Assembly (NCBI GenBank): GCA_007118145.1
Contig: SKSD01000015.1
Span: 75,268 to 139,267, forward strand
Origin: Halobacteriales archaeon
Lineage (GTDB): Archaea > Halobacteriota > Halobacteria > Halobacteriales > SKSH01
DNA length: 64,000 nucleotides
Direction: 5' to 3'
Both the position numbers and the translations under genes were made by a program. Positions 54,789 through 60,994 of this stretch are shown here, piece after piece (positions within the stretch are counted from its first letter, which is position 1; each line of letters opens with the position of its first letter). Under the pieces are notes generated by a model. That model did no database searches and was not told the origin of the DNA. It saw only the letters and a program-made list of their open reading frames with translations.

Positions 54789-55988
54789 TCACGCCTCGAT
54801 CTCCCCACGGATGAGATCGGGTGCTCGTTCGAGCAGTTGCTCAAGTCTGTCCGCCGCAGGGCCACCACCCTCGGCGAAGTCAGGAGGTCCACCACCGCCG
54901 CCATCCACGTGTTCGGCGAGCGTCCCGACGAGTGCCCCTGCGTCGAGTGTCGCACTCTCGGGTCGGGCAACAACGATGTGGACACCAGATCCGGTATCTC
55001 CAGCGACGACCGCGACAGCACCATCCTCAACGATAGCGTTTGCGGTCGCCCGGATGTCCGCCTTCGAACCGTCGACACGCTGGATGACCGCCTTGAACGC
55101 CCCAAGATCGATCGTCTCCGCGTCATCTGCCGAGCCAGCCCGAAGTGTGGCTAGTTCGGCCGATATCTCCTCGATTCGCTTGCCACGATCCTTCCATGCC
55201 TCGAAAAACCGCTCTGCTGTCTCGGGTACCTCTGGTGGGCTCACATCGAGTACCTCTGCGGTATCCAGCAGGAGGTCCTCACGGCGTTGCATGCGTTCAA
55301 CCGCGGCAGATCCGGCAGAGAACACCAGGCGTTCGACACCGTCTTGGACACGCTCGGTACGGTTGATCGAGATGAGGCCGATATCGCCAGTGCGTTTGAC
55401 ATGCGTCCCCCCACATGCCTGGATGTCGTCACCGACCTCGATGGTTCGGATATGCCTCCCCGGTGGAATGCCGCCCTGATAGAGGTCAAATCCGTGTTCT
55501 GCCTCCGCCTCGTGACGGTCAGGCCAGCGCTGCTTGACGAAGAGGTTCCTTCTGACCACCTCGTTCGCTCGACGCTCGATCGCCTTGACCTCGCTACGGT
55601 CGATGCGCTCGAAATGCTCGATATCGATCCGAGAGTTCGACACCCCCTTCCTGGCTCCGGCCTGGTGGATGTGATCGCCAAGTTCCTTTCGCGCAGCGTC
55701 GATGAGGATGTGCGTCGCGGTATGATTACGCATCAACTGACGTCGACGTGACTGATCGAGCCGGCCATCGACGATGGTACCCTTCTCCAATGGCTCATCC
55801 GTTCGGTGAAGGATCACCCCATCGACCGACTGGACATCGGTCACACGTACGGAGGAATCCTGATCGGAGATCGTCCCAACGTCTGGCGGTTGGCCACCAC
55901 CCTCGGGGTAGAACATCGTCTGGTCGAGGACGATATCGTAGCCATCGTCCGTCTCGAACACGTCGAGCACGACCGCCTCGAACGACAT
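54789..55988 (-). CDS. alaS: Alanyl-tRNA synthetase, C-terminal (editing) part of a split gene
   Basis: The 399-residue product matches the C-terminal half of archaeal AlaRS. It starts MSFEAVVLDVFETDDGYDIVLDQTMFYPEGGGQPPD, then RNHTATHILIDAARKELG with the editing-site zinc ligands, CGGTHVKRTGDIG, a helical linker, and a C-Ala domain ending GGGGGPPDFAEGGGPAADRLEQLL. The frame is the same as that of the upstream synthetase part; the two are separated only by TAG and one codon (CGG) before this ATG. It could be made by re-initiation, by readthrough, or the TAG could be an error. On its own it would resemble a trans-editing AlaX with a C-Ala tail. Confidence 0.88.
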   Translation of the reverse strand: MSFEAVVLDVFETDDGYDIVLDQTMFYPEGGGQPPDVGTISDQDSSVRVTDVQSVDGVILHRTDEPLEKGTIVDGRLDQSRRRQLMRNHTATHILIDAARKELGDHIHQAGARKGVSNSRIDIEHFERIDRSEVKAIERRANEVVRRNLFVKQRWPDRHEAEAEHGFDLYQGGIPPGRHIRTIEVGDDIQACGGTHVKRTGDIGLISINRTERVQDGVERLVFSAGSAAVERMQRREDLLLDTAEVLDVSPPEVPETAERFFEAWKDRGKRIEEISAELATLRAGSADDAETIDLGAFKAVIQRVDGSKADIRATANAIVEDGAVAVVAGDTGSGVHIVVARPESATLDAGALVGTLAEHVDGGGGGPPDFAEGGGPAADRLEQLLERAPDLIRGEIEA

Positions 55989-55991
55989 CCG

Positions 55992-57569
55992 CTATTGGTC
56001 GTCATAATAGAGCTTCTCCGTCTCAGGTAGGTCTCGTACCCGGTCGTACCCTTCATCCTGCTCGTGTGTCACCTCGGCTGTCTCGTGTCGCTGTGCCACC
56101 TTGGCGAAGAAGTCATCAGGGACGGTGACCGGGACGCCACGCTCACTGGCGATAGCCGCGACCGTCTCGGGCTGGATACCGTGTGAATCGTACAGTTCAA
56201 TGAGTTCTTCGACAGGTATCTCCTCACCGCGATCACTGTACCGATCGGCGAGTTGTCGAACTCGACGGGTACCACGCTCGAGCGTTTCGTCGTACTTGTT
56301 GACCTCGGATTCGACCATCCGTCTGATGGTCGATCGATTCCGATAGCCCAGTCGCTTGGCTTGTGCATCGACGAGTTCGACGATCGGTCGCTCGAGTTCG
56401 AGCTCATTTGCAAGGCGGACCGACCGCCTAAGGACCATCCGTGCAAGATAGCCCGATCCAACGTTGCTTGGTACGATACCATCACCGAGCATGTACGCGA
56501 GTGCACGCGAATGATCAGCGAGGGCATAGACGTGTTCCAGCGGCCGTTGCATCTCTGCGAGCGTATCCGGTTCGACCCCGAGGTCTTCGGCGATACTCTC
56601 TCTTGCGACATCAACATCGTCCACCTCTTCGAGGTCGAGTCGACCAGCCATCCCCGCCGCAGCATCGAGAAGTTGTCGCTCGTGATCATCGAACCCGAGG
56701 TCGAGTTCATCAAGTAGCTCCTCGATCAGATCGGGGTAGACCGAGTCATAGATCGTTGGGGTGCCCTGACTCACCCAAACCCAGCGCTCGAGGCCATACC
56801 CTGTGTCGACGATGTAGGTATCCATCTCCGTGTAGCGGTTCCCATCCTTGAGCTCGTACTCGCCGCTGTCGTCCTGTTCGAGCGACATGAAGACGAGTGT
56901 GGCGAGTTCTGCTCCCTTGTAGATGACCTCGAGTGCAGGTCCAGCGTTTCCTCCACCAACCCACGGATCTTCGATATACGTGAGTTGATCGAGATCTGCA
57001 CCCATGGACTCGAAGAACGCGTCGCAGTACCTGACGGTCTGATCCTTCCAGTAAACCTCACCCTGGTAGGCGTACTGGTCGGGGTCGTCGAGATCCTCTC
57101 GGGTGTTGAACGCATGATGAGCCATCATCTCGAACGCCATCGTATGGCGCCCGGTCTTGCCAACGTTGTCGATATCCTGCATCCGGATGCATGGTTGGGA
57201 GATCGTCAGCGGGTTCGCCGGTGGTGGTGTTGTCCCGCTGGTGACAAGCGGTTGGAAGTCGTAGATGGACGCCTGTGTGAGTAAGACGTCGTCCCGCCAG
57301 CGGTGTGCCGCGACTGGGTATGGGTCGATCCGGGTATGATTGTTAGCCTCGAAGAAGCTGAGAAACTCCTCACGCATCGACTCGAGGGTATGCTCCTCGG
57401 CGAAGCCAGGGTCACCGATGAAGGTGTACGACGCACACGGTGGTTCACCACAGGTGGACATATTCGCGTCACGGGCCCAGTAGTGACGTCCGCATGATGG
57501 ACACGCTGATCGGGTGAAGCCCTCCTCCTCGAAGTATGCGAGCCGATAGGCCCCCTCATCCAACGGCAT
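55992..57569 (-). CDS. alaS: Alanyl-tRNA synthetase, N-terminal (aminoacylation) part of a split gene
   Basis: The 525-residue product carries the class II aminoacylation domain and tRNA-recognition region of archaeal AlaRS. It starts [32 protein letters not shown] with the zinc-like cysteines, has [42 protein letters not shown] and [33 protein letters not shown]. It ends [10 protein letters not shown] followed by TAG, where intact haloarchaeal enzymes continue directly into the editing domain. The sum of the two parts (about 924 residues) equals a normal AlaRS. Confidence 0.92.
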
Positions 57570-57621: not shown

Positions 57622-58608
57622 CTACGCGTTGGCTTCACCCCTGGCGAGCCTCGCCAGGAGCGATTCGAGTTGCAACCGCTCGTTCGCACCCTCTGCGATG
57701 CGATAGTCGATCTCGCCAAGGAATTCAAGCAATGCCACCGCTCGCTCATCATCGAGTCCAAGATCCCACACCGAGCGGTGGATCTGTTCGATGATATCGT
57801 CTGCGGCGATCGCCTGATCGATGAGTAACGTCTCAAGCGTACTTCGCGCGGTGAGGAACTCGCCCTCGACAGCCCGATTAATCATCTCAGAGACCTGCTC
57901 AGGGCGAGCCGTGGAGGTGATCTGATAGACCGCATCCTCGTCGACCGCCTCTCCGAGCACTGCTGCTGCCTGTAACGCGTTTATCGCACGGCGCATATCG
58001 CCGTCTGCCACGTACGTGATCGCCTCCATACCCTCGGGATCGACCTCGATTCCCTCGTCCTCGGCGATCTCAAGGACGACCTCGCGGATGGCATCTTCGG
58101 GAAGGGGCCTGAATCGGAAGACGGCACATCGGGATTGGATTGGGTCGATGATCCTACTCGAGTAATTACACGAGAGGATGAAACGCGTCTGGCCTGAGAA
58201 CTGTTCCATCGTCCGACGGAGGGCAGATTGGGCGTCGTTGGTGAGCGAGTCAGCCTCATCGAGGAAGACGATACGGTAATCGAAACCACCGAAGCTCGCC
58301 CTGGCAAAGTCTTTGATTCTGCCTCGAACCACATCGATCCCTCTGTCATCCGACGCGTTGAGTTCGAGGAAGTTCGCTCGCCATTCATCCCCGTACAGTT
58401 CGCGAGCGATGGCGATCGATGCGGTGGTCTTGCCAACACCGCTTGGCCCCGCGAACAGCATGTTCGGGAGGTCGTCCTGCTCGACGTATCGTCGCAACCG
58501 CTCGACGATCTCGTCCTGTCCCTTGATGTCGTCGAGACTGCTGGGTCGGTACCGCTCGATCCAGATATCAGAGCCGGTGGTCGCTCCCTCAGCACCAGCG
58601 TCGCTCAT
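57622..58608 (-). CDS. rfcS: Replication factor C small subunit (clamp loader)
   Basis: The canonical clamp-loader small subunit (328 residues) loads PCNA onto primed DNA. It has [16 protein letters not shown], Walker [15 protein letters not shown] near residues 54-67, [14 protein letters not shown], an intact Walker [13 protein letters not shown], and the SRC motif [12 protein letters not shown]. Compared with the paralogue at 16936, all ATPase residues are present. A TATA-like box is located 28 bases upstream in the gap shared with the SAMP2 gene. Confidence 0.96.
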
Positions 58609-60316: not shown

Positions 60317-60994
60317 TCACTCAAGAAGCTCAACGCCATCAGCCTTGCCGATGGCTATCACATCGGCAACGCCGATGAATAACCCATGATCGAGGACACC
60401 CGGAGTCGCCCACAGTTCGTTGGCGAGCGTCTCTGGTCGCTCGATCACGCCGAAGTCGGCATCGACCAGCAGGTTGCCCCGTTCTGTGTACGCTGGTCCG
60501 TCGGTGGTCGTGCTCGTTCGGATGGTTGACTTCCCACCGAGTGTATCGATCCCGGATAACACCGATGGAATCGCCTCCGGCAGTACCTCAAGTGCAACAT
60601 GGCCATCCAGCTTGGTCGATACCTTGCGCTCGTCGACGACCACGATGAACCGATCGGCACTCGTGTCTATCACGCGTTCGCGTGTGTGTGCACCGCCGCC
60701 ACCTTTGAGGAGGACGGTGTCGCACACTTGATCGGCTCCATCGATCGCGACATCGACCGTCGTCACCTCGTCGAGTGAGGTCATCGTGATACCTGCCTCG
60801 ATCGCACGATCTCTCGAGGCGTGTGAAGTCGGGATACCCTCGATGGCCAACCCGGCATCGACCCGCTTGCCGAGTTCGTCGATGGCGAACGCGGTAGTCG
60901 AACCGGTACCGAGCCCGACGACCATACCGTCATCGACCTGTTCGACCGCCCAACGAGCCGCCCGACGTTTCATCGAAGCGTACTCATCGCCCAT
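60317..60994 (-). CDS. rpiA: Ribose-5-phosphate isomerase A
   Basis: RpiA interconverts ribose 5-phosphate and ribulose 5-phosphate. The 225-residue protein has VGLGTGSTTAFAIDELG near residue 26, DVAIDGADQVCDTVLLKGGGGAHTRERVID near residue 85, VVVDERKVSTKLD and an ending GLFIGVADVIAIG. The catalytic Asp, Glu and Lys positions of the family are all present. The ATG at 60994 is preferred to the TTG at 61021. It follows orc1/cdc6 by 42 bases on the same strand. Confidence 0.95.
   Translation of the reverse strand: MGDEYASMKRRAARWAVEQVDDGMVVGLGTGSTTAFAIDELGKRVDAGLAIEGIPTSHASRDRAIEAGITMTSLDEVTTVDVAIDGADQVCDTVLLKGGGGAHTRERVIDTSADRFIVVVDERKVSTKLDGHVALEVLPEAIPSVLSGIDTLGGKSTIRTSTTTDGPAYTERGNLLVDADFGVIERPETLANELWATPGVLDHGLFIGVADVIAIGKADGVELLE

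Follow-up and report, generated by a model that had tools for sequence, protein, structure and literature searches.

An alanyl-tRNA synthetase gene divided by one TAG codon

The minus strand of positions 57569..54789 of the window, the 64,000-nucleotide stretch of DNA analysed here, carries a haloarchaeal alanyl-tRNA synthetase (AlaRS) gene that is intact apart from a single in-frame TAG. The first open reading frame (ORF; 55992..57569, minus strand) encodes 525 amino acids comprising the catalytic and tRNA-recognition domains of an archaeal AlaRS, its alpha part, as judged from TIGR03683, Pfam family tRNA-synt_2c and alignment to PDB entry 3wqy, and it ends DDQ-TAG. The TAG (55992..55994, minus strand) is codon 526. 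It is followed by a CGG spacer codon (55989..55991, minus strand) and by an in-frame ATG (Met528; 55986..55988, minus strand), the probable re-initiation codon. At this ATG begins the second ORF (54789..55988, minus strand), which runs for 399 amino acids from MSFEAVVLDVF to a TGA and encodes the beta part, namely the editing domain and the DHHA1/C-Ala region, recognized by TIGR03683 and by Pfam families tRNA_SAD and DHHA1. The TAG, the CGG, the ATG, and both ORFs share one frame, whose read-through length is 926 codons. The stop-to-start gap, with both ORFs on the same strand, is +3 nt, inside the range of about -8 to +10 nt for termination-reinitiation.

The first ORF matches positions 3-509 of the 902-position archaeal AlaRS profile TIGR03683 (738 bits, E-value 1.4e-221), and the second matches positions 512-901 (430 bits). 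Neither reaches the curated cut-off of 744.7 singly; jointly they span the profile end to end, a full-length family match in two pieces. These results confirm the observation made in a preliminary description of this DNA, that one in-frame TAG parts two otherwise complete AlaRS halves.

Key residues of the archaeal AlaRS family are all present. N369 and D461, both in the first ORF, align with N359 and D450 of the Archaeoglobus fulgidus enzyme in the alignment to 3wqy, and the second ORF contains the editing motifs HTATH (residues 616-620) and CGGTH (residues 719-723). N369, D461, H616, H620, C719 and H723 are invariant in an alignment of 32 rows. Recognition of G3:U70 by an Asn and an Asp of AlaRS is an established role.

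The cut at residue 526 falls after the tRNA-recognition domain. A predicted structure, used for the loop only (its catalytic domain is poorly modelled, with pTM 0.44, and the block around residues 514-528 has pLDDT of about 80), places the TAG in a connector or loop at 514-528, just before the first long strand of the editing domain at 529-540. The N-termini of stand-alone AlaX-M proteins in PDB correspond to residue 517 or 518, and the AlaX-M of this genome opens with TERLYLDDAY. The corresponding conserved TEKLYYDD segment of AlaRS remains on the first chain, so that the cut lies about ten residues inside the usual AlaX start and is imperfectly clean.

The host assembly is a 1.72 Mb draft in 88 contigs, 79% complete, with the window on a contig of 151.8 kb. 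No other AlaRS was found in this 79%-complete assembly, where the enzyme is represented by the two ORFs and by no single-ORF copy; two further matches are one AlaX-M and one AlaX-L-like protein. The upstream neighbour of AlaRS is the gene for the replication factor C small subunit (RFC-small; 57622..58608, minus strand), which adjoins AlaRS also in a sister genome, an uncultured member of the Halobacteriales. This common adjacency shows the locus to be orthologous rather than a stray copy. Of 110 haloarchaeal loci examined, 44, the sister's included, have RFC-small next to AlaRS. An RpiA gene is also found near AlaRS in the sister; the window stretches concerned are 57622-58608 and 60317-60994. 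Elsewhere in the assembly, an intron-bearing tRNA-Arg(TCT) occurs in identical form and with equal scores at two contig ends (G000:C45:14-118 and G000:C81:151699-151803; L133 and L134), which suggests either that these contigs join or that a tRNA repeat broke the assembly.

The interrupted site in related genomes

The sister genome (G001), the one other genome of the family that was compared, encodes an AlaRS that is 77% identical to that of the window over residues 1-757 and whose frame is uninterrupted at the site. It reads CAA GAG CGG ATG where the window reads CAA TAG CGG ATG. One base is therefore sufficient to make the stop, and the ATG is inherited, as is the identical CGG before it. 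In 101 distinct sequence contexts from haloarchaea, one being that of the window, the residue at this position is Gln in 36, Glu in 26, Gly in 14 and Tyr in 7, with CAG, GAG and CAA as the main codons. The preliminary description had supposed that homologues usually have Tyr here, with TAG arising from TAC. That supposition was wrong, and an origin of the amber codon from Tyr is dismissed, given the predominance of Gln and Glu at this position and the GAG codon (Glu) of the sister. It had also named an intact gene in strains of the same species as a refuting observation; the comparison made here, which extends to a sister genus, shows an intact gene in that relative.

Among the matches listed, no in-frame stop inside AlaRS occurs in any of about 371 other archaeal genomes. 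A second apparent split, in genome G410, is dismissed because both pieces reach contig ends. A haloarchaeal genome that is 96% complete (G157) has an AlaRS match in three pieces on one contig (L272, G157:C12:80655-83252). This pattern suggests frameshifts, gene decay or misassembly, and it was not counted as a fission. Another haloarchaeal genome (G293) has two full-length AlaRS genes (L149 and L165), 65% and 58% identical to the AlaRS of the window.

Reality and reading of the TAG codon

The main rival to a genuine split is that the TAG is a wrong consensus base, whether introduced in sequencing or assembly or taken by the assembler from a minority strain, in a population whose AlaRS is in one piece. 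We regard this as distinctly possible, if doubtful. The source is a fragmented draft from a single assembly, one base is enough, the only other family genome compared is intact, and the absence of internal stops elsewhere makes a true split rare a priori. Against this, the contig is long, and the assembly is otherwise clean where it was sampled. The sampled stretches, totalling 509 kb, contain about 100 conserved genes (32,496 codons), and AlaRS is the only one with a stop or frameshift after antisense ORFs and leader extensions have been set aside. On this sample, a generally decaying genome or an unreliable consensus is accordingly rejected, six flagged cases having shrunk to AlaRS alone; the others were upstream leader extensions, one end-of-gene case and antisense ORFs, of which one was checked against a ferredoxin on the opposite strand.

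The position of the stop also argues against a random error. There are 290 single-base changes that could make a stop in the gene, and just two of them lie within residues 510-530 with an in-frame ATG no more than 6 nt away, a chance of about 0.7% for the combination of domain border and nearby ATG, to be taken loosely as about 1-3% because the test was framed after the site was seen. Column 526 is, moreover, among the 2% most variable of the AlaRS alignment, and a random change would strike a column this variable about 2% of the time. Besides the TAG, no other lesion is found across the 926 codons. At conserved columns, the window and the sister lineage show 14 and 12 changes, respectively, in the first part and 4 and 3 in the second, so that neither half has an excess of change or has accelerated. 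These three indirect tests, namely the clean assembly, the location and variability of the site, and the unaccelerated halves, lead us to favour the base as a real mutation that is probably present in the cell.

If the base is real, an amber suppressor or a near-cognate tRNA might decode it often enough to yield a one-piece enzyme, the split products being by-products. The frame does stay in phase beyond the TAG, and many amino acids are tolerated at the site. The use of TAG elsewhere in the genome speaks against this: it terminates 22 of 105 conserved genes, 20 of which end no more than 15 residues from where the homologue ends, and strong suppression would therefore harm many proteins. The preliminary description had recommended a search for an amber-suppressor tRNA or pyrrolysine genes, and the search came back empty: the best PylS profile score was 23.5 bits, where the cut-off is 178, and none of the 25 tRNA genes found, a set from which many tRNAs are missing in this draft, has a CTA anticodon. 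TAG is thus an ordinary stop here, and general recoding or pyrrolysine use, which that description had already thought unlikely, is dismissed. Read-through of this one codon is less likely than re-initiation beyond it, and we rate it as improbable. Least probable of all, and in our view very unlikely, is a real TAG in a dying gene, with an intact second AlaRS in the part of the genome that the draft lacks: that part does amount to about 21%, and two AlaRS genes do exist in some haloarchaea, whereas the locus is the orthologous one beside RFC-small, the gene shows neither further lesions nor acceleration of either half, and two full-length AlaRS genes occur in only one genome among those searched.

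A candidate two-chain AlaRS

The best single explanation, which we hold to be slightly better than an even proposition, is that a nonsense mutation genuinely and recently split the gene, and that termination-reinitiation now yields a two-chain AlaRS. Our confidence is kept close to even because a survey of archaeal gene fusions and fissions warned that many apparent fissions may be artefacts of wrongly assembled metagenomic records (PMC11237513). According to this explanation, a single substitution, GAG or CAG to TAG, would recently have cut the canonical AlaRS gene of this uncultured haloarchaeon into two adjacent cistrons. Ribosomes would terminate the 525-residue aminoacylation chain at the TAG, and many of them would re-initiate 3 nt on, at the pre-existing ATG, to make the 399-residue chain with the editing and C-Ala domains. 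The two chains may then cooperate, as the subunits of Nanoarchaeum equitans AlaRS do, or the second may serve as a trans-editor resembling AlaX-L.

Re-initiation at the ATG 3 nt past the TAG, as raised in the preliminary description, is plausible mechanistically from what is known of Haloferax volcanii. Re-initiation there works at overlaps and at very short gaps, and a spacing of 0 to +6 nt is common among natural gene pairs; efficiency depends on distance, with a gap of 13 nt causing a loss of about 60% and a gap of 22 nt abolishing the process (PMC10666635). These data put a gap of +3 nt within the working range. The H. volcanii pairs resemble the pair in the window in lying on the same strand at -8 to +6 nt and in often encoding subunits of one complex (PMC10666635). 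They differ in consisting of two ordinary, separate genes, whose overlap is typically 4 or 1 nt, whereas the pair in the window is one cut gene at +3 nt. No Shine-Dalgarno motif is found within 20 nt upstream of the ATG; in H. volcanii such a motif is helpful and not essential (PMC6728339). An internal leaderless promoter for the second ORF was considered and rejected, as inspection by eye found no TATA-like box at the usual distance. Two TAT codons 16-21 nt upstream of the second ORF are too close to serve as a promoter and encode a conserved Tyr-Tyr.

A split archaeal AlaRS is already known from N. equitans, cut at a different site. The preliminary description had drawn this parallel, and it holds as far as the division of labour: NEQ211 and NEQ547, like the two ORFs of the window, supply an aminoacylation chain and an editing/C-Ala chain, which in N. 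equitans act as one enzyme (PMC10036535, PMC3655853). The parallel fails for the architecture of the cut. The break in N. equitans interrupts the tRNA-recognition domain, and the genes there are non-adjacent and far apart, whereas in the window a one-base cut in place, after that domain at residue 526, leaves two ORFs 3 nt apart in one frame. The N. equitans alpha chain alone is weak and not specific for G3:U70, and adding beta restores both activity and specificity (PMC10036535). In the window, by contrast, the first chain retains both counterparts, by alignment, of the Asn and Asp that read G3:U70, and for this reason it would be expected, from its sequence, to charge tRNA-Ala specifically by itself. 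The genomic settings differ too. The N. equitans split occurs in the highly reduced genome of a symbiont and is absent from its relative Nst1, whose AlaRS is unsplit (PMC3655853).

AlaRS is described as having one prototype structure nearly everywhere, with N. equitans the exception named in the literature consulted. The proposition in full is that a free-living haloarchaeon has a two-chain AlaRS produced by one nonsense mutation at the junction of its tRNA-recognition and editing modules and rescued at once, through termination-reinitiation, by a ready-made ATG; we consider its chances evenly balanced. If true, an essential one-chain synthetase would have become a two-subunit enzyme in one mutational step, and fission by one base outside extremely reduced symbionts would uncouple gene splitting from genome reduction. 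The locus would also be a minimal natural test case for two questions: can alanylation, editing and tRNA binding by C-Ala proceed on separate chains, and can an essential gene survive a nonsense mutation by means of termination-reinitiation?

Each chain, if functional as we suppose, has a known counterpart. The first is like the mini-AlaRS of Tupanvirus and the N461 fragment of Escherichia coli AlaRS, in which the catalytic and tRNA-recognition domains lack editing and C-Ala domains on the same chain (PMC10036535); in mini-AlaRS those domains are wholly lost, whereas the window still encodes both next door. The second ORF is like AlaX-L, with the same order of domains (an editing barrel with HxxxH and CxxxH motifs, then C-Ala), and it aligns over nearly its full length to the genome's own AlaX-L-like protein of 407 amino acids (residues 1-376 to residues 13-383). 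It differs in belonging by sequence to the AlaRS family TIGR03683 and in starting about 12 residues later. The AlaX-L-like trans-editing protein shares its contig with the split AlaRS, being encoded from G000:C81:4591 onward (L119), and is a possible back-up for editing.
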